IMG/VR virus record: IMGVR_UViG_3300013093_004244
Coordinates: 1 to 20,777 of that record
Length of the DNA: 20,777 nucleotides
Reading direction: 5' to 3' (one strand)
Source: a virus
Within the stretch, counting starts at the first letter, position 1. Every line of letters begins with the position of its first letter. Positions 3,115 to 18,259 of the stretch are shown here, piece after piece. The position numbers and the translations under genes were made by a program. The notes beneath the pieces were generated by a model, which worked only from the letters and a program-made list of their open reading frames with translations, was not told the DNA's origin and did no database searches.

Positions 3115-3666
3115 ATGAAGTATGCAGGTAATTTGTTAATAGCTAATCCCAGCAATCCGCAAGACGAATTCAGCCGCAGTGTTATTTTATTAGTTACACA
3201 CACTGATAATGTAGCTGTAGGTTTACAAGTAAATCTAGAACATACCGAAACTGACCTCAGCACAGTAGCGCATAATATCGGTATTCCTTTACGCACAAAC
3301 GATCCATTATATTTTGGTGGTAATCAAAGTGTTAATAAGATTCACGTTATACATAGTTTGGATTGGAAGGGTATAAGCACAGTAGCACTTAATAAAGAAA
3401 TAGGCATAACCAATGACATTTCTATATTAGCTGCTATTGCCGATGGACAAGGTCCTATGTATTATAAAGCCTGTGCGGGTTATTGGTTTTGGGGCGATGG
3501 TAGATTGGATCACCAGTTAAACCCTCGCGGTCGAGAAATGTATGAACCACACAAATGGGAACTTATACCTGCAACTATCGACAATGTGTTTGAAGACTCT
3601 GTAGAAGATATGTGGGCCAAGGGTCTTAAGTCTGTGGCCCGTCAAAAGATAGCAGCTTGGTTCTAA
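3115..3666 (+). CDS. AlgH/UPF0301 (YqgE)-family-like protein
   Basis: The 183-residue sequence follows the pattern of the bacterial UPF0301/AlgH family (E. coli YqgE, about 187 residues). It has LLIANP then FSRSVILL near the N-terminus, a VGLQVN segment near residues 35-40, a FGGNQ segment near 67-71, and IHSLDW near 79-84. The later Gly-rich stretch ending in GYWFWGDG and the Trp-containing C-terminal region also fit. Length and order match, so it is full length. The family's biochemical role is poorly defined; it has been called a transcriptional regulator in Pseudomonas (AlgH), but direct evidence is weak. An acquired host gene or an old phage relative are both possible. It is isolated on the plus strand and ends 3 nt from the convergent helicase gene. 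Confidence 0.7.
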   Translation: MKYAGNLLIANPSNPQDEFSRSVILLVTHTDNVAVGLQVNLEHTETDLSTVAHNIGIPLRTNDPLYFGGNQSVNKIHVIHSLDWKGISTVALNKEIGITNDISILAAIADGQGPMYYKACAGYWFWGDGRLDHQLNPRGREMYEPHKWELIPATIDNVFEDSVEDMWAKGLKSVARQKIAAWF

Positions 3667-7567: not shown

Positions 7568-8117
7568 GTTTTTCACATAATAAGTTCATGTGTACTACCA
7601 CAACCATTGCGTAACTGATGGCGTGTGCTTTCTTAAAATAGTACTCATCATTGTCAGGTTTCGTCCAAACCTCGTTCATAATCGTCGTCCAATCCTTCCC
7701 AATCAAATAGCGTTTTGCCGGTCTGATCATAGCTAGGACTGCACCTAATTGTTCCACGGAAGTAGGGCAAGTCTGTTTCAGTACATCCAGGTGCCCGTTC
7801 AAATGAAATAACAGATTTACAAATTCTTCTTCCAAAAGTAGATTCCATAAGGGCTCCTGTTCAAGTAATTTATTTAAATGTTTTTCGTTTTTAATGTCTT
7901 GATATATACTTACATTGAGGAAATCTATCTTAAAATAACCTCTATCTTCTGCGGTTTTGTAATCAAGACTAGCATTTCCAGTTAAAGGATTGACTGGAAT
8001 TTTATGACAATAAACACCAGTATTATGTCTACGTCCATCTTCTAATGTTGCTGGAACACTCTTAATAATTTCAAGTATTTTTTTTCTATCAGCAAAGTCA
8101 ATATCAATATCAGGCAT
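7539..8117 (-). CDS. Miniature DnaE-like protein (Pol III alpha catalytic-core remnant)
   Basis: This 192-residue protein is colinear with the catalytic palm of bacterial DNA polymerase III alpha (DnaE, over 1,100 residues). PDIDIDF at 2-8 matches E. coli PDFDVDF, so D5 and D7 align with catalytic D401 and D403. HNTGVY at 31-36 fits the KHAGGV region. KIDFL at 63-67 matches KFDFL, so D65 aligns with D555 and K63 with K553. LAMIRP at 128-133 fits the LVALFRPG region, and KKAHAISYAMV at 162-172 fits NKSHSAAYALV. PHP, beta-binding and OB domains are absent, the fingers are almost gone, and the upstream Gly-Ser nucleotide-binding motif is missing. It is therefore unlikely to be a processive polymerase; a reduced nucleotidyltransferase, regulator or vestige is possible. 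The ATG lies 8 nt inside the end of the kinase gene. Confidence 0.7.
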   Translation of the reverse strand: MPDIDIDFADRKKILEIIKSVPATLEDGRRHNTGVYCHKIPVNPLTGNASLDYKTAEDRGYFKIDFLNVSIYQDIKNEKHLNKLLEQEPLWNLLLEEEFVNLLFHLNGHLDVLKQTCPTSVEQLGAVLAMIRPAKRYLIGKDWTTIMNEVWTKPDNDEYYFKKAHAISYAMVVVVHMNLLCEKLNFEYSSQI

Positions 8118-8880
8118 TAGCGATTTCTTCTAAGGTTGGGGCATAGTTACCACGATGTTGTACGGTGATACTTGCTGCTTTATTAGCAAATACTATAGCA
8201 TCGTCTATTGAATTTGTCATTAAGAATTGATAGGTTAATGCAGATAAAAATGTATCTCCGCACCCACAAACATCTACAGGTTCTACGGTATTTCCGCTAA
8301 ACATTTTCTTAGTTTCGTGTTCCAAATACATTGCACCGTTGCCACCTAAAGTAACAATAGTTTTTTCACCGTTGCTCCATCGATTATTATATTCGGTTTC
8401 ATTAATTTTAAGATAGCATCCATAAAATTTATGTAATTCTTTTTTCTTAGTATCAACAAATATTGGGCCTTTGTATTTTTGAAGAATCATTTCTATATGC
8501 GAATCTGTAATAAAGCCTTTATTATAATCGGAAATTACAACAGCAGTATAATTTTCCCAATTACCTTTAATTTTTCCATTCCAAGGTTTAATAGTAGATT
8601 CTTTATCAACCCGTAACAAATGTTGTCCAGATCTTTTATCAATGTATCGAGTCTTAATAATGGATTCTCTGTTAGAGATAAAATCTACTTCACAATTTAG
8701 TTTTTTTAAATTATCTAAAACATTTTCAGCCATACCAACAGCAGTATACTGTTCGGCTATTTTCATAATAGGAACAGGGGCTTCGGGATTTAACCTATCA
8801 CAGGTTCCTATAATATATTCATCGGTACAACGATCACCGATTAATAATATTTTGAATGATGTTAGTTGTTGAGTATCCAT
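8110..8880 (-). CDS. hldE1: HldE1-type D-glycero-D-manno-heptose-7-phosphate kinase (PfkB fold)
   Basis: It probably phosphorylates D-glycero-beta-D-manno-heptose 7-phosphate at C1 in ADP-heptose synthesis. The fold is PfkB/ribokinase. LIGDRCTDEYIIG at 13-25 and RLNPEAPVPI at 29-38 match the HldE N-terminal domain. GMAENV at 49-54 fits the family GGAANV, and SDYNKG at 117-122 fits DYAKG. The anion hole and base are GCGDTF at 206-211 with D209. At 256 residues it is shorter than the E. coli kinase domain, with a clear deletion after about residue 68. The frame is open to 8901, but GAAAGGA sits 5 nt before the ATG at 8880, so that start is chosen. It still overlaps the upstream adenylyltransferase gene by 47 nt. 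A general sugar kinase is the alternative. Confidence 0.78.
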   Translation of the reverse strand: MDTQQLTSFKILLIGDRCTDEYIIGTCDRLNPEAPVPIMKIAEQYTAVGMAENVLDNLKKLNCEVDFISNRESIIKTRYIDKRSGQHLLRVDKESTIKPWNGKIKGNWENYTAVVISDYNKGFITDSHIEMILQKYKGPIFVDTKKKELHKFYGCYLKINETEYNNRWSNGEKTIVTLGGNGAMYLEHETKKMFSGNTVEPVDVCGCGDTFLSALTYQFLMTNSIDDAIVFANKAASITVQHRGNYAPTLEEIANA

Positions 8881-9226
8881 ATATCCTTTCAAAAAAAACA
8901 ATTTTCTTACAAACTTCTTCGCCTACAATAGGTTTACCTTGATAATCGCTGCCTTTGACCATTATATCACACATACTAACTAATCTAATAAGTTCATTAT
9001 CGTTGTTGAAAATAACTACTTCATCGACTGCTTTTAAATTTTTTAACATTAACCATCGGTCATATTCACGAGTAATTGGCCTATCGGGTCCTTTTAATGT
9101 TTTAATTCTTCGATCGCTGTCTATGCCTACTATTAATTGATCGCCAAGACTTTTAGCATAATTTAACAGTTCAATATGTCCGGTATGTAAAATATCAAAC
9201 GTACCGTTTACAAAAACTTTAATCAT
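8834..9226 (-). CDS. hldE2: HldE2-type ADP-heptose adenylyltransferase
   Basis: This 130-residue cytidylyltransferase-fold protein corresponds to the C-terminal domain of HldE, which joins AMP from ATP to heptose 1-phosphate. The nucleotide-binding signature NGTFDILHTGH is at 7-17, with the HxGH histidines. GIDSDRRIK at 34-42 and a segment ending GPDRPI follow. The second family signature is YSTTNII at about 118-124. In E. coli this domain is fused behind the kinase; here it is a separate gene and lies before the kinase gene. Its ATG overlaps the hldD stop as ATGA, implying translational coupling. Glycerol-phosphate cytidylyltransferase is a fold relative, but the Hld neighbours favour heptose. 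It lacks the upstream steps GmhA and GmhB, which the host would have to supply. Confidence 0.8.
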   Translation of the reverse strand: MIKVFVNGTFDILHTGHIELLNYAKSLGDQLIVGIDSDRRIKTLKGPDRPITREYDRWLMLKNLKAVDEVVIFNNDNELIRLVSMCDIMVKGSDYQGKPIVGEEVCKKIVFFERIYGYSTTNIIQNIINR

Positions 9227-9996
9227 ACAGGATAATATTTTCTTAATTTTTCTAAATTAGCACATGTATATGTTTGATATTGAGCTTTTACATTATCTGG
9301 CATAGGAATATATTCTATTCGAGCATTATATTGTTGAGCAATTTCTTGTGCAACATCTTGAAACGATTTTGCTACACCTGTACCGATATTCCAAATTCCA
9401 GAATCCATGACATTGAAAAATGTTTTATGTACATCAATTACTCTTTCCACTGGTACAAAATCTCTCAAATACTTGTCCGATCCTTCGAACAGTTTTATAA
9501 CTCCGTCGTTTTTTGCTTGTTGCGTAAATTTGTAGTATGGGCTTGCTTGATCGCCTTTGTGATCTTCATAAGGTCCATATACATTAAAATATCGAAATCC
9601 TTGTATACGGCATTTCCATTTTCCAGTAAAACCTCTAATATATCTTTCAAAAAGATATTTACTCCAAGCATATGGACTGCGAGGATCTACTGGAGCATCT
9701 TCTCTAAAATCATTTTTTAATCCATATACACTTGCTGAACTTGCAAATTGAAAATTAACAGAAAATTTATGACATTCACCTAAAATCCATCTGCTAAAAT
9801 CATAATTTTGTCCGATAACCTTTTCTACATCAGTTTCAGTAGTTGAACTTACTGCACCTAGATGTATTACTAAATCTAAACCTTCGACATTAGGAATAGG
9901 ATCGTTCCAATCGAAGAATCGTAGGTCGTGATCTTTAAGAGCAGCAACCATGTTTTGACCAATAAAACCTTTATGGCCGGTAATTAATATTTTCAT
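9223..9996 (-). CDS. hldD: ADP-L-glycero-D-manno-heptose 6-epimerase (HldD), short form
   Basis: This is a short-chain dehydrogenase/reductase-fold epimerase that inverts C6 of ADP-heptose, the precursor of the LPS inner core. The NAD(P) Rossmann motif is GHKGFIG at 7-13. The active-site set is SSASVYG at 86-92 and Y109-x3-K113. HldD-specific signatures are clear: SSTTETD at 50-56, GFRYFNVYGP and GHKG-like residues in the substrate region, then KLFEGSDKYLRDFVPV and NIGTG. It is 257 residues against about 310 in E. coli; the missing part is the C-terminal helical end after the YQTYTCANL segment. Core catalytic residues are kept, so activity is likely. It is coupled by ATGA overlaps to the upstream cupin gene and the downstream adenylyltransferase gene. 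Confidence 0.88.
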   Translation of the reverse strand: MKILITGHKGFIGQNMVAALKDHDLRFFDWNDPIPNVEGLDLVIHLGAVSSTTETDVEKVIGQNYDFSRWILGECHKFSVNFQFASSASVYGLKNDFREDAPVDPRSPYAWSKYLFERYIRGFTGKWKCRIQGFRYFNVYGPYEDHKGDQASPYYKFTQQAKNDGVIKLFEGSDKYLRDFVPVERVIDVHKTFFNVMDSGIWNIGTGVAKSFQDVAQEIAQQYNARIEYIPMPDNVKAQYQTYTCANLEKLRKYYPV

Positions 9997-12341: not shown

Positions 12342-12845
12342 TTACCAGCATTTACTATAATTGATTATTTCACTTTGTCGAGAAACTTCTTTGACAAAAT
12401 AAGCACAGGTAGGATTAAGACCATTGTGCAACGGAGTACATAATAGTTGACCTGGACGCATTTTAGGAAAATACCATTTAACATCTTGGTACACATCAAT
12501 AATATCAATATCTAAAAAATCTGGTCTAAATCCACTCAATGGATTAAAACAAAATGTTTTAAATCCTCGATCGTTAAGGCTAGTTAATGGCAATACTTCC
12601 ATGTCTGGGCCTTCAGGATCTCCTACTACTGCACACCAATCTAATGGCATAGTTAATTCATATTTTCCAATTTTTAATACTACAGCAGGACCTGTAAAAC
12701 TTTCTAAAAATATTAATGGAACAAAAAAATGATCAGGGTTTTGATTATCACTGTTATCTAAAACAGCAAATCTTAAATCCTCATCTATTTCATCTGGTAG
12801 ATCATTTAGTGAGAATGTTTTATTTTCTAATGTTAAAATCTGCAT
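12342..12845 (-). CDS. Conserved T4-like phage protein, unknown function
   Basis: This 167-residue protein is rich in acidic residues and aromatics and is predicted to be mostly beta. Recognisable blocks are KYELTMPLDWCAVVGD around 62-77, LPLTSLNDRGF at 85-95, FNPLSGF at 99-105, and MRPGQLLCTPL near 131-141. The closing AYFVKEVSRQSE segment is near 150-161. The W-x-x-x-V/I-G-D and S-L-N-D-R-G-F blocks recur, as I recall, in hypothetical proteins of T4-like marine phages; no function is known to me. Its ATG shares one base with the uvsW stop (TAATG), so it should be cotranslated with UvsW. The context suggests a role in DNA metabolism or early expression, but nothing in the sequence proves it. 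Confidence 0.65.
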   Translation of the reverse strand: MQILTLENKTFSLNDLPDEIDEDLRFAVLDNSDNQNPDHFFVPLIFLESFTGPAVVLKIGKYELTMPLDWCAVVGDPEGPDMEVLPLTSLNDRGFKTFCFNPLSGFRPDFLDIDIIDVYQDVKWYFPKMRPGQLLCTPLHNGLNPTCAYFVKEVSRQSEIINYSKCW

Positions 12846-14305
12846 TATTGATATTTTACCTTTTCTATATTAAATGGATATTTGGCTTCTTTATAAAACC
12901 TTTTACGTTCTGTTAGATGCCGTTTAGCATACTTAGTTGCAGCAGTTATATCCCATATCTGCACAAAATCTTTATCTTCGGCCTTGCGAATACCGCGACC
13001 AATACTTTGAATAACCCTAACAAAGCTCTTTCCGGGTTCAAGAAGAACTAAGTTAAAGATTCGAGGTATATTAATTCCTACAGCAGCCACGCCATACGTT
13101 GCTACAATAATTTTGTTATCACTAGTTTTGATTTCATCATATTCTTCCTTACGATCCTTGGTTTTTACTTTTCCTGATACAAATACCGCTTCTGGTATTT
13201 GATCTACAATAAACTTACCAGATTCAATTCTACCGACTAATACTAATGTGTTACCACTTTCACTAATTTTTCGTATAACGTTGCTAATGTATGTCATTCT
13301 TGTTTCATCAGTAACAAGATAATTTAATTCTTCTGCATACCCTCCGAATTCTTTCCATTCGCCGGTTTGAACAATTTTTACATGGCAATTACTTAGTACT
13401 CCTGAGTCCTGAAGTGTATGAGCAAATACATGGTTTGTTACTTCGCCTAAACTAGCTTTAATGCTTTGAAATTCATGGTCTGCCTTGGGTATAGTTCCAG
13501 TCAACCCCCATCGAATTGGAGCATTTGCTAAATTGCGTGTTAGAAGATTTTTTAACACATCTGCCTTGGCCATATGAACTTCGTCAACTATAATTGTTTT
13601 TACATTTTCTAATAGTAATTCTAATTTTGCCGAAGCTGCGTCATCCCAATTTTTACTATTTTTGTCTAAAACATTAAGACTTTGCCAAGTACAAATTGTA
13701 TGTGTTCGATCTAAATCTTTTCTATCTCCATAATAAACTCCGACATCTAATCCGCAGTTTATAAAATCTTCTTCTGTTTGTTCCACTAAAGATTTATTAG
13801 GAACAACGGTTATAGTTCGACCATATTTTTCACAAATTTTGCTCAAAGTTGCGGTGGTAATAGTTTTACCAAACCCTGTGGCAATTTCTTGGATACTTTG
13901 TGGATGTTTAAGAAATATGTTAATAACTTCAACTTGATCTTCTCTTAATCTAATAGGTTGACCAGCAAAGCGATGTCCCACAGGCCATGTTTTTTCTCCC
14001 CAAAAATCTTCAGAAATTTCATCAAAATTTAAGTCAATTGGAATTCGTTGATCTTCAAGTTCAATATAGAAATTTTTACTTTCTAAATATTCTAATACGG
14101 CAGGAAGCATACTCAAATAGGTAGTTCCTCCTAAACCAAAAAAACTTACAGTTCCGTCCCAACGACCTAATTTATATGCTGGTCTAAACCGTGCTGTAGG
14201 ATCTTCGTATTTGAATTTTCTGACCAAAGCCTTGCGTGTGTCAAGATCTAAATTTTCTATCTTGACATTAACTTCGTCTTTAATTATGACTTTACAGTGG
14301 TGCAA
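12845..14305 (-). CDS. uvsW: UvsW-type superfamily 2 DNA helicase
   Basis: UvsW is an ATP-dependent helicase that regresses forks, migrates branches and removes R-loops during recombination-dependent replication. The small N-terminal UvsW domain covers about 1-100 (KLGRWDGTVSFF at 45-56 is characteristic). Helicase motifs follow in order: REDQ Q-motif-like at 121-124, Walker A ATGFGKT at 142-148, VVPNKSL at 167-173, DEVH at 241-244 and GLTGT at 267-271. VATYGVAAVGINIP falls at about 401-414 and motif VI QSIGRGIRK at 433-441. Length (486) fits T4 UvsW. The start lies 14 nt inside the preceding HARP-like gene. Every catalytic motif is intact, so it should be active. Confidence 0.93.
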   Translation of the reverse strand: MHHCKVIIKDEVNVKIENLDLDTRKALVRKFKYEDPTARFRPAYKLGRWDGTVSFFGLGGTTYLSMLPAVLEYLESKNFYIELEDQRIPIDLNFDEISEDFWGEKTWPVGHRFAGQPIRLREDQVEVINIFLKHPQSIQEIATGFGKTITTATLSKICEKYGRTITVVPNKSLVEQTEEDFINCGLDVGVYYGDRKDLDRTHTICTWQSLNVLDKNSKNWDDAASAKLELLLENVKTIIVDEVHMAKADVLKNLLTRNLANAPIRWGLTGTIPKADHEFQSIKASLGEVTNHVFAHTLQDSGVLSNCHVKIVQTGEWKEFGGYAEELNYLVTDETRMTYISNVIRKISESGNTLVLVGRIESGKFIVDQIPEAVFVSGKVKTKDRKEEYDEIKTSDNKIIVATYGVAAVGINIPRIFNLVLLEPGKSFVRVIQSIGRGIRKAEDKDFVQIWDITAATKYAKRHLTERKRFYKEAKYPFNIEKVKYQ

Positions 14306-15488
14306 ATCTGAATTCCTTTTGTAATGATTGATTAGTATAAATTATCAAATTTTCATGATTTTCTATAAAATTTTTAATGACACGATGATCGTTTTTTCCA
14401 CCTAAATTAACAATGGAGTTAAATTTTATTTGAGATTTTAATAATGGTTTAGGTAGTTTACCATTAATAAAAGCTACTTGAATATTTTCGTTTATTAAAT
14501 TATTTAAATTTTGATTTTTCACAAAAATATTGAAATTTTTATCGGTTTCTGAGGGTAATCTAAACATCACACTCATTTGCTCATTGCTAATGCCAATGCT
14601 GTTTAAGAAATTTACAGATTTTTGTAAATCTTCTAATTGATTACCATTTGGAATAACAAACAAACATGGACTTAGATATTTTATGATATCAGTTAGTTGA
14701 GAAAAATCCGTTTTTTCTGAATTTATATAAAAATTTTCAGAAGGATCGGTCTTTAAAAATTCTTTAATTACAGGAATAGCATCGCATTGGTCTAACAATC
14801 CAGCTAATACATCATCGTGACTAAAAATTCCATATTTTCTTGCTGTAAAAAATGCTTCCAAAATATTATTGGTCGAAAAATCAGGTATTTTTTCAGAAAT
14901 ATTCTTAAATTTTATAGTTGTGCCGTCTAACGTTAGCATAGGCACAATATTTTCTATATTTTTTATTACTTCCACAATTTGATCAAAGTACATTTTCAAT
15001 TCATTGCTAATTTGAAAATTTTCTGTGTTGGCAAAATCCATTAAAAATCTTAAATTCTTCTCGCTAAGTGAAAAAAACCAAGATTTTTCATCGGGATTCC
15101 AAATAGCCTTATCGAGCTTGTTTTTATTTTGTCTAATTTTTGTTATATATGTTTCATTATAAGGAAATTGTACTTTGACCTCCTTATTAAAAATTCCAGT
15201 TTGAACAATTGACATTATTTTTTGATTAATTGATGTTCTTATTGGAAATTTAAAAAGAGGATTTTCAAAAAAATCACCAACATATAATTTTAATTCGGTG
15301 TTTAAATGATTTTTGTATTTTTTTAAAATCTTCAAGGCTAATGTTGCTTGTTTTTCTGTAAATCCAACATTGCGAGCAATTTGTTCAGAAAAACTAAAGA
15401 TGATTTTTTGATCATAATTGTTAATTGATACTTTTGAATTATATATAGTATATGATAATTTAACAATTAAATTTTCTACAGTAATCAT
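14292..15488 (-). CDS. HARP-like domain protein, candidate UvsW partner
   Basis: I know no named family for this roughly 398-residue protein. Numbering here counts from an alternative GTG at 15503, directly after the uvsY stop. The ATG at 15488 (sixth residue) is preferred only as the commoner start codon; neither has a clear Shine-Dalgarno. Residues 38-67 are helical, with FTEKQATLALKILKKY. Residues 108-156 resemble a HARP (HepA-related) domain: VKVQFPYNETYI, then IWNPDEKSWFFSLSEKNLRFL with the family's W-x(6)-W-x-F spacing. The remainder looks like a worn Rossmann or helicase core without Walker motifs (LFVIPNGN, SIVNLGG and NLIIYT strands). HARP domains in SMARCAL1-type annealing helicases support strand annealing. 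The gene overlaps uvsW by 14 nt, suggesting a split helicase-accessory pair (inference). Confidence 0.6.
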   Translation of the reverse strand: MITVENLIVKLSYTIYNSKVSINNYDQKIIFSFSEQIARNVGFTEKQATLALKILKKYKNHLNTELKLYVGDFFENPLFKFPIRTSINQKIMSIVQTGIFNKEVKVQFPYNETYITKIRQNKNKLDKAIWNPDEKSWFFSLSEKNLRFLMDFANTENFQISNELKMYFDQIVEVIKNIENIVPMLTLDGTTIKFKNISEKIPDFSTNNILEAFFTARKYGIFSHDDVLAGLLDQCDAIPVIKEFLKTDPSENFYINSEKTDFSQLTDIIKYLSPCLFVIPNGNQLEDLQKSVNFLNSIGISNEQMSVMFRLPSETDKNFNIFVKNQNLNNLINENIQVAFINGKLPKPLLKSQIKFNSIVNLGGKNDHRVIKNFIENHENLIIYTNQSLQKEFRFAPL

Positions 15489-15503
15489 AAGGTTATTATA
15501 CAC

Positions 15504-15959
15504 TCAAAGTGTGATATCTTCAAGACCTGCGGCACGTAGTTTAATAATATTACTTAGTTGCCATTGCTTAATGTCTAATGCTTTGATAATACCTAACCAT
15601 TGATTTCGCAGCATAGCAAATTCGTTGATAATTTTTTCCATATCAACAACATCTGCTTCACCTTCGACGTATTTTTCACAATCTCTACTGCTTAACGCAC
15701 GCTGATAGTTTTCCAAATACTTTTTAAAGGCTTTGGATTTTGTACGGCGTAATTCTATATTTAGGTATTCAAGAACAGCTTCGATTTCTTGTAATTGATT
15801 AAATCTATGTTCAACGATGCCGGGCAAGGACGCCGAAGCTTTTTCCACGTTACCGTGAATTTTAACTTCGGTTCGTGCCTTGTCCAGTTCGTTATAGAAA
15901 TAATCTAAACATTGAGGAAGATGTGCTATGTCTTTACTGACCTTAGCATACCAACTCAT
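15504..15959 (-). CDS. uvsY: UvsY-like recombination mediator
   Basis: UvsY helps UvsX displace gp32 and load on single-stranded DNA. This 151-residue protein is all helical, basic in the middle and close to T4 UvsY (137). Supporting segments are LEYLNIELRRTKSKAFKKYL near 63-82, LSSRDCEKYVEGEADVVDM around 89-107, and WLGIIKALDIKQWQLSNIIKL at about 120-140. The D/E-K-Y-x-x-G-E-x-D-V block and the terminal W-x-G-I helix agree with the UvsY pattern. Order uvsX, small gene, uvsY, then uvsW is T4-like. The start codon overlaps the stop of the acidic gene by one base, so it is coupled. Family identity rests on pattern and context; no catalytic residues exist to check. Confidence 0.78.
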   Translation of the reverse strand: MSWYAKVSKDIAHLPQCLDYFYNELDKARTEVKIHGNVEKASASLPGIVEHRFNQLQEIEAVLEYLNIELRRTKSKAFKKYLENYQRALSSRDCEKYVEGEADVVDMEKIINEFAMLRNQWLGIIKALDIKQWQLSNIIKLRAAGLEDITL

Positions 15960-16222
15960 TAGTATTCCTCGTCATCTTCGTCGGAATCCCAATTATTCTC
16001 ATCTTCATCATCATCTTCGTAATCGTCATCTTCCTTGAGAGCAAGATTAATAGCAGCATCCATATGAGGATCGTATCCTGTAACACTACCTAATACAGAT
16101 AAACCTACATCACGCCCTAACAAGAAATCAACATAATGACTAGCAGCGACTTCTCTATTTTTTTCTGGAATATATTCTTTAAATACATCCCACATATCAA
16201 TAATCATATCTTCTTCTATCAT
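15959..16222 (-). CDS. Acidic-tailed mini-protein between uvsX and uvsY
   Basis: This 87-residue protein has two parts. Residues 1-62 form a helical domain with DMWDVFKEYIPEKNREVAA at 9-27, then HYVDFLLGRDVG at 29-40. Residues 63-87 are extraordinarily acidic: 18 of 25 positions are Asp or Glu. Such tails mimic DNA and compete for single-strand-binding or recombinase surfaces, much like the acidic tail of gp32. The gene overlaps uvsX as ATGA and touches uvsY by one base, so all three are probably made in fixed ratio. I recall similar small proteins next to uvsX in T4-like marine phages without known function. A role in tuning the UvsX-UvsY-gp32 exchange is inference from position and charge. 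Confidence 0.65.
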   Translation of the reverse strand: MIEEDMIIDMWDVFKEYIPEKNREVAASHYVDFLLGRDVGLSVLGSVTGYDPHMDAAINLALKEDDDYEDDDEDENNWDSDEDDEEY

Positions 16223-17274
16223 GATTCCTCTTCCGTTTCTGTTTGTGTTGTTAATAGTACAGCATTAGCATCCCACTGTTTCATAATTAACTGTAATTTA
16301 TCTTCAGTCCAGTTTTTGCGGAACTCTGCGATAATTTCGCCAGTATCTTTATCAGTATATGCTAACTTATTTCCTACTTTAGATAATATATTCATTTTTT
16401 CAAACATGTCAACCAATCCTGAGGTCGGGCTCATTCCTGTTGTATAAGGAATTTCTACCTGTACACTTTCAAATGGTTTAGCATACCGAGTTTTCATAAT
16501 TTTACAAGCACTACGAATTCCATGTACTTCGGAAGTTTTGTTTCCATCTGCGTCTGTTTTTAATTTTAACTTACGCATAGCAACTACAATAGAACTTGCA
16601 TAAATGAATCCTTGTCCGCCACTGATTTTGTCATCTGGATCAAACATATCTTGACTAGCGTATGTATGATTAGTACAAACTAATCCAACATTCCAACTAC
16701 CAAACATATTGACACAGTTTCGAACCAATGCTGTTAATGCTTTAGGTTTACGACCCATGTCACCTTTTAAGTCACCTGCTTCAAACTGATTTAAATCAGT
16801 TGGAGTCATTAACATTCCAAGACTATCAATTACAAAAAGAATTTTTGGTCGTTCCTCTTCGGGCATACCTTTGTATTCTTTCATAAACTCACTAATGGTT
16901 TTTGCCACATCGTCGATCATTGCCATGTTTAATTTTAGCAATTTTTCTTCTGATGTATCAACACCAAGAGCGTGTAACCATGCTTCGTCCAACGCATTTT
17001 CACTGTCAATTAATATGACAAAGATACCTTGTTCTTGAGCATTTTTGATAATATTACCTGAGCAAATATAACTTTTACCTGCACCAGATTCTCCAGCAAA
17101 TACCGTAACTTTACCGAGAGGGACTCCTCGAAAGAAGTCCCCACTGATAAGATAGTTAAGTGCATAGTTGCCAGTTGAGATCCAATCTGTTGGATCGTTA
17201 AAACCAATTCCTAGTCCGTCAATCGATTTAGTAATAGATTTACGGAACTTCGAAATATCGAAGGCCTTTCCCAT
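16219..17274 (-). CDS. uvsX: UvsX RecA-like recombinase
   Basis: UvsX forms filaments on single-stranded DNA and drives strand exchange for recombination-dependent replication. The 351-residue length matches the T4 family (about 390) and RecA (about 350). Walker A GESGAGKS is at 61-68, SEN with the catalytic-type glutamate E92 is at 91-93, and Walker B KILFVIDS is at 144-151. KGDMGRKPKALT near 169-180 corresponds to loop L1. An NHTYAS segment is at about 202-207, and KISGGQG near 216-222 marks loop L2. A clear AGGAGA ribosome-binding site lies 13 nt after the gp32 stop. The stop overlaps the next start as ATGA. All ATPase residues are present. Confidence 0.93.
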   Translation of the reverse strand: MGKAFDISKFRKSITKSIDGLGIGFNDPTDWISTGNYALNYLISGDFFRGVPLGKVTVFAGESGAGKSYICSGNIIKNAQEQGIFVILIDSENALDEAWLHALGVDTSEEKLLKLNMAMIDDVAKTISEFMKEYKGMPEEERPKILFVIDSLGMLMTPTDLNQFEAGDLKGDMGRKPKALTALVRNCVNMFGSWNVGLVCTNHTYASQDMFDPDDKISGGQGFIYASSIVVAMRKLKLKTDADGNKTSEVHGIRSACKIMKTRYAKPFESVQVEIPYTTGMSPTSGLVDMFEKMNILSKVGNKLAYTDKDTGEIIAEFRKNWTEDKLQLIMKQWDANAVLLTTQTETEEES

Positions 17275-17287
17275 AATCTATCTCCTA

Positions 17288-18259
17288 TTATTGTGCTTGA
17301 CGTTTACGAATCATTGAGATAATATCAGCAGCACGACTGCTAGCATCATTACCTGTTGATTCAGTTACAGTTACTTTTGTTTTTGTAGTAGCAACTACTT
17401 CTTCATCTGCATCAACATCATCGCTGGCTGTTGATTTTGAAGAAGTTGTAGATCCAGTTGCCTGACCGCTACCACCAAATCCTGCTGGCTTAAAGTATTG
17501 ACCCCAACGATCACCATCATATGCTTCACCTTCTACTGATGCTTCAAACATTTCTTTGATAACTTTGAGTTCAACAGCACCTGGCTTCTTAGGTAAAAAT
17601 TCAGATAAGTTAAATAATCCATATTGCTTAATTGCTGCTTGTTCTTCATCACTTAATGCGCGTTCACGACGTGCCCAGCTTGATGTAGTATAGTCAGCAA
17701 ATCCGCCCTTACTGGTTTTAACAATCTTAAAATCTAGACCACGAACATAATCTGTTGGTAATTCATCGATCTCACTATCCATAAGTGCATTCTTAACAAT
17801 GTTAAAAATTTGTGCGCTCATAATAAAACGACGAATTGGATTTTCAGGAACTCGATCTTCTTGTAGTTTACTGTCAACTACAAAGCCTTGGAATAAGTAC
17901 GAACGTTTCTTCCAATACTTACGACCCATATCTTCTAAACTCTTATCCTTAAACCATGGACGAACTTCTGTTAAGATTGGGCAAGTTTCTCCCCACATTT
18001 CCATACAAGGAACTTGTACAGTTACAGGTTTGCTGTTAGTTTCACCTTTAATTCCAGCAAACGGCAATTTAATCATTGCTCGTTCAATCCAGAAAAAAGT
18101 GTTATTTGGATCAGCATCTGGAAGGAAACGAACTGTTGCAGTTGCACCTTCTGAGATATTCCAATGTGGGAAAATGGCGTTATCACCGCCGTTTGATTGA
18201 TTACTTGTTTGTTGTGCGCTTGCTTGAAGCTTTGCGCGGATTTCTGCTAATGAGGCCAT
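17288..18259 (-). CDS. 32: gp32-like single-stranded DNA-binding protein
   Basis: It coats single-stranded DNA at forks and recombination intermediates and contacts UvsX, UvsY and primase-helicase. The basic N-terminus ASLAEIRAKLQ at 2-12 provides the cooperativity domain. The OB core (about 28-230) includes HWNISEGATATVRFLPD at 32-48 and RKYWKKRSYLFQGFVV at 113-128. The T4 zinc site would use one His and three Cys; here only C85 and C93 remain in the PCMEMWGETCPI region, so zinc binding is doubtful. Residues 262-305 are Ser/Thr rich with an acidic DDVDADEE patch, and a conserved-looking C-terminal helix AADIISMIRKR closes it. A strong AGGAGA site 7 nt before the ATG fits high expression. The gene heads the long leftward operon behind a terminator. 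Confidence 0.92.
   Translation of the reverse strand: MASLAEIRAKLQASAQQTSNQSNGGDNAIFPHWNISEGATATVRFLPDADPNNTFFWIERAMIKLPFAGIKGETNSKPVTVQVPCMEMWGETCPILTEVRPWFKDKSLEDMGRKYWKKRSYLFQGFVVDSKLQEDRVPENPIRRFIMSAQIFNIVKNALMDSEIDELPTDYVRGLDFKIVKTSKGGFADYTTSSWARRERALSDEEQAAIKQYGLFNLSEFLPKKPGAVELKVIKEMFEASVEGEAYDGDRWGQYFKPAGFGGSGQATGSTTSSKSTASDDVDADEEVVATTKTKVTVTESTGNDASSRAADIISMIRKRQAQ

Follow-up and report, generated by a model that had tools for sequence, protein, structure and literature searches.

A HARP-domain protein with a predicted ATPase-dead helicase lobe, encoded between uvsY and uvsW in a lineage of large phages

How far can the recognition of a replication fork be separated from the motor that remodels it? 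The HARP domain, chiefly familiar from the human fork-repair enzyme SMARCAL1, lies behind the annealing-helicase power of that enzyme, and a phage locus in which a gene with a candidate HARP segment runs into the gene for the helicase UvsW bears on this question. The window, that is, the whole stretch of DNA analysed, is the complete IMG/VR record IMGVR_UViG_3300013093_004244 (20,777 nt). Judged by the sequence of its UvsW, which is 53% identical to that of Sinorhizobium phage Phosso, 50% to the PA5oct type, 49% to Atu_ph07 and 48% to RaK2, the source is a T4-like phage akin to large phages. Its minus strand carries a recombination operon encoding, in order, a gp32-like single-strand binding protein (SSB; 17288..18259; phrog_1192, E 1.2e-65), the RecA-like recombinase UvsX (16219..17274; from Pfam and PHROGs), an 87-aa small protein with an acidic tail that is conserved between uvsX and uvsY (15959..16222; from ORFs and synteny), a UvsY-like recombination mediator (15504..15959; phrog_231, E 6.8e-17), the 398-aa putative HARP-pseudohelicase protein studied here, which we call P1 (14292..15488), and UvsW, an intact SF2 helicase of 486 aa (12845..14305; from Pfam, PHROGs and motifs). 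P1 starts with the ATG at 15488, on which the homologues agree, beginning M-x-(I/V)EDLI; a GTG at 15503 would give a longer ORF without homologue support. Downstream of uvsW, here and in most relatives, lies a gene for a 167-aa protein of unknown function (12342-12845, minus strand; phrog_11279), which is 78-93% identical among relatives and much better conserved than P1.

What kind of protein is P1? Scans of Pfam and PHROGs with its sequence alone gave nothing useful, Pfam returning nothing for the P1 of the window itself, and a P1 profile found no match among PDB sequences. The earlier note had picked out a HARP segment from its residue spacing, and profile-profile comparison bears this out. 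A profile of P1 residues 86-160 built from 45 homologues aligns with three real HARP domains, namely HARP2 of mouse SMARCAL1 (PDB 4o66, its sequence taken from a search alignment) and the two repeats of gp5 of Bacillus phage vB_BcoS-136, with an hhalign probability of 96.8 and an E-value of 2.7e-10; the score is 49, against 21 for the best of 100 column-shuffled profiles and 7 for the reversed profile. In the opposite direction, an HMM made from the three known domains matches 80 of 80 P1 proteins, with matches beginning around residues 80-120 in nearly all of them. On the P1 of the window it covers residues 101-154 (E 4e-4; best homologue 5e-7), and shuffled P1, UvsW, UvsX and UvsY gave no comparable match. 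Although plain Pfam leaves HARP (PF07443) below its curated cut-off, five of the 45 homologues matching it sub-threshold with E 0.019 at best, the profile match is clear against its controls and far beyond chance, and we therefore accept that P1, at the level of sequence, carries a HARP domain. DUF5710, a short domain, is also matched below threshold by Pfam in 6 of the 45 homologues (best E 0.0094) and, at a level near that of HARP, may be a related domain.

Profile, HMM and model together place the HARP domain at residues 91-156 (15021..15218, minus strand), with a predicted beta-beta-alpha-beta-beta-alpha order and a structure model of pLDDT 93. The HARP crystal structure 4o66 is not among the Foldseek/VIA rows for this domain model; the full P1 model matches a 73-aa viral protein described as 'SWI/SNF-related' (TM 0.72, 2.3 Å). 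On the N-terminal side is a helical 'TEKQ' module (residues 22-66; 15291..15425, minus strand) that is also found in phrog_21015, a family of unknown function.

The C-terminal part, which the earlier note took for a worn helicase core devoid of Walker motifs, is modelled as just that. AlphaFold2 (mean pLDDT 89.7 for full P1) folds residues 215-394 (14307..14846, minus strand) into one RecA lobe with SF2 strand order, and VIA-align superposes it on XPB, DEAD-box proteins, Chd1 and T4 UvsW over 114-157 residues with Z of 8-10, values that near 8 may be unspecific on their own, nearly all rows matched being SF2 helicases; for T4 UvsW (1rif) Z is 8.6 over 150 residues at 3.8 Å. In XPB, Chd1 and T4 UvsW the aligned part is the first RecA lobe, and DEAD-box proteins likewise align through RecA lobes; the P1 chain stops where a second RecA lobe would start. 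Walker A is absent from 58 of 58 homologues, its lost place probably being residues 253-263 (FYINSEKTDFS; 14700..14732, minus strand), as read by eye from the predicted strand order, and the homologue alignment shows no acidic DExH motif where motif II should be. The motif Ia and Ib regions make DNA contacts in SF2 enzymes; in P1 they are among the most conserved parts (0.62-0.75), the Walker A region among the least (0.47), and MSVMFRL, which follows motif Ia (residues 305-311; 14556..14576, minus strand), is invariant in all 45 aligned homologues. On the model, this is an SF2-type RecA lobe of the RecA1 kind without ATPase motifs, predicted to be catalytically dead. Nor does P1 appear to be a copy of the neighbouring UvsW, to which its profile has no meaningful sequence homology (probability 0.3). 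The former label of a stand-alone HARP protein thus does not quite fit P1, in which an N-terminal phage module, HARP and a dead RecA lobe are joined; P1 looks like a companion assembled from the HARP domain and dead lobe of another helicase.

Has UvsW, then, been split to give P1? The UvsW of the window retains Walker A (ATGFGKT), DEVH, TGT and motif VI (QSIGRGIR), with a UvsW_N-like N-terminus that is sub-threshold in Pfam (E 0.0043). UvsW is therefore complete and unsplit and P1 an added protein, which leaves the former idea of an annealing helicase divided between the two only partly supported. The 14-nt overlap from which that idea started is real (14292..14305, minus strand; ORFs 14292-15488 and 12845-14305), and uvsW begins with TTG, with AAAGGAAT upstream. 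Of 88 non-redundant loci, 69 share the 14-nt length; uvsW opens with TTG in 75 of the 88, with ATG in 11 and with GTG in 2. Given the weak TTG start and the overlap, translation of uvsW probably depends on that of P1, not of uvsY, which would hold the two proteins in proportion.

P1 has at least 323 relatives in IMG/VR, and among isolated phages only gp418 of Phosso was found; a search of 84,980 species genomes of bacteria and archaea yielded none. The order SSB-UvsX-orf87-UvsY-P1-UvsW is strict wherever the neighbouring genes can be seen, P1 lying between uvsY and uvsW in 88 of 88 informative non-redundant loci, and homologues away from uvsW, which would have spoken against the proposal of the earlier note, were not found outside the uvsW cluster. 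One gene separates the P1 homologue from uvsW in Phosso, and possibly in Atu_ph07 too. In one locus (L065, 7730-9740) the best UvsW match, which begins at UvsW residue 239, lies about 2 kb beyond the end of P1, suggesting an insertion inside or before uvsW. RaK2 and PA5oct-type phages, with UvsW about 47-50% identical, have no P1 at this position, which weakens the case for P1 as a subunit of the UvsW system.

Within this constant setting P1 evolves faster than any other gene of the cluster. Over 92 non-redundant loci it is 30-59% identical to the P1 of the window (median 41%), against medians of 80% for UvsW, 83% for UvsX and 90% for UvsY, and its mean distance is 0.95 versus 0.14-0.23 for the neighbours, which is odd for a core subunit and counts against P1 being one. 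Such a rate would suit a decoy aimed at the host's repair or defence helicases and nucleases, sitting on DNA ends or branches, a part that a dead helicase lobe might play. We consider this unlikely: the decoy is without a known host partner, and the invariant MSVMFRL and the fixed place in a core recombination operon better fit a part of replication and repair. The loss of every ATPase motif, with the coupling to uvsW conserved, could also mark P1 as the decaying remnant of a SMARCAL1-like helicase whose sole remaining role is translation coupling; because homologues down to 29% identity still have their full length, their HARP domain and the internal motifs, we do not regard P1 as decaying and judge that account very improbable.

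Taken together, the HARP domain, the literature on SMARCAL1 and UvsW, and the operon point most strongly to an accessory that binds forks or junctions, and we give a probability of roughly 55% to P1 being a subunit without motor activity that binds DNA junctions for the phage UvsX-UvsY-UvsW recombination and fork-repair machine. We propose that its HARP domain recognises the branch where single-stranded meets double-stranded DNA, be it in a stalled fork, a D-loop or a Holliday junction, that the dead RecA lobe serves as a passive docking surface for DNA or protein, and that P1 directs or stimulates UvsW, together with the UvsX/UvsY filament, to anneal strands and regress forks, so that two polypeptides would share what SMARCAL1 does in one. 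T4 UvsW, itself a fork-regressing enzyme, belongs to one pathway with UvsX and UvsY (PMC3016281), and HARP fused to other SNF2 motors produces annealing-helicase activity, according to the passage of PMC4035279 that cites Ghosal 2011.

The partner of P1 is less certain than its role, translation pointing to UvsW and covariation more to UvsY. RAD51, a SMARCAL1 contact, is the counterpart of phage UvsX. P1 might accordingly be an annealing or mediator factor whose partners on SSB-coated strands are UvsX and UvsY rather than UvsW, the overlap reflecting compact operon packing: P1 lies directly 3' of uvsY in all loci, UvsY ranks first among its covariation partners by distance matrix (partial r 0.48; bootstrap 95% interval 0.24-0.58; 0.21 for UvsW), and SMARCAL1 anneals strands, RPA-coated DNA included, without ATP hydrolysis, contacts RAD51 and is stimulated by it (PMC9371921). 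The covariation is rate-based and indirect, however, and the TTG start and overlap tie uvsW to P1 and not to uvsY, which leaves this alternative doubtful. Nor did covariation lend support to a UvsW partnership, the P1-UvsW link being ordinary. A more specific form of the junction-binding role, in which a widespread giant-phage lineage would possess a two-polypeptide SMARCAL1-like fork remodeller, with an ATPase-dead HARP subunit reading the fork and a translationally coupled UvsW as motor, we put forward as a tentative possibility. The case for such a single machine, like that for the subunit role itself, is weakened by that ordinary covariation, by the completeness of UvsW and by the sufficiency of T4 UvsW, which needs no helper to rewind DNA or regress forks (PMC3778716).

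Comparison with known systems sharpens what is particular to P1. As in SMARCAL1, HARP lies N-terminal to an SF2-type RecA lobe, and fork or junction substrates are likely; whereas the SMARCAL1 type combines HARP with a two-lobed SNF2 ATPase bearing Walker A and B, P1 has a single RecA-type lobe without ATPase motifs, and the motor beside it is a separate polypeptide from a different SF2 branch. In ZRANB3, a likeness by description rather than by sequence, a substrate-recognition domain recognises fork structure and the motor depends on it (PMC12841045), but the domain shares a chain with the active SNF2 motor. T4 also has a separate helper for UvsW, the small UvsW.1, a proposed DNA-binding partner (PMC7824862); UvsW.1 is trihelical, whereas P1 comprises HARP and a RecA lobe, and no UvsW.1 match was found among the four small neighbouring proteins that were scanned. 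The gp5 of vB_BcoS-136, a HepA-related protein with two HARP domains (Pfam E 1.2e-11), is likewise a motorless phage HARP protein, but truly stand-alone, with no recognised RecA lobe and encoded outside a uvsX-uvsY-uvsW operon.

The one isolate protein found, Phosso gp418, has a homologous TEKQ module and HARP part (hhalign probability 96.8, E 2.6e-10) in the same gene cluster, but stops after the HARP part and is followed by a separate 500-aa protein, for which no homology was detected, and then UvsW. Phosso gp419 was considered as the missing RecA part, since by eye it resembles a degenerate SNF2 lobe (ILLDHKGISYSRH), and was rejected, being without sequence support or relatives. In Atu_ph07 (L008, 3918-5448) two overlapping unknown genes, of 181 and 334 aa, lie upstream of uvsW and may represent P1 in a diverged form split in two; a TEKQ-like N-terminal module in the first is weakly supported (probability 10.9, E 0.0028), and the 334-aa protein yielded no match. 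The PMBT14 and PTm1 helicases from the fold list have SNF2 domains without a Pfam HARP match. No complete HARP-SNF2 helicase was found elsewhere in Phosso or the large relatives searched, records that may be fragments.

In the open-licence literature searched, no phage system of this form came up. The earlier note's view that none is known needs narrowing: motorless HARP proteins are already annotated in phages, and it is the union of HARP with a dead helicase lobe inside a uvsX-uvsY-uvsW operon that appears new to the literature. The P1-UvsW pair, present in a sizeable group of uncultured giant phages, suggests that phages may have divided a repair machine kept as one protein in animals. If so, it would offer a natural split, an ATP-dead HARP subunit beside a well-studied phage motor, open to mix-and-match in vitro, and the shared HARP domain would connect phage fork regression with animal fork reversal.

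Elsewhere in the window, genes for a PfkB-type kinase, a cytidylyltransferase-like protein and an NAD-dependent epimerase stand in a row (8110-9996, minus strand) and resemble an HldE/HldD-type sugar pathway; the sugar, possibly ADP-heptose, is a guess. An AlgH/DUF179 protein (3115-3666, plus strand; E 1.4e-21) belongs to a family whose usual home is bacterial chromosomes, and an NT5C-type deoxyribonucleotidase is encoded at 1873-2385 on the minus strand (E 3.5e-7).
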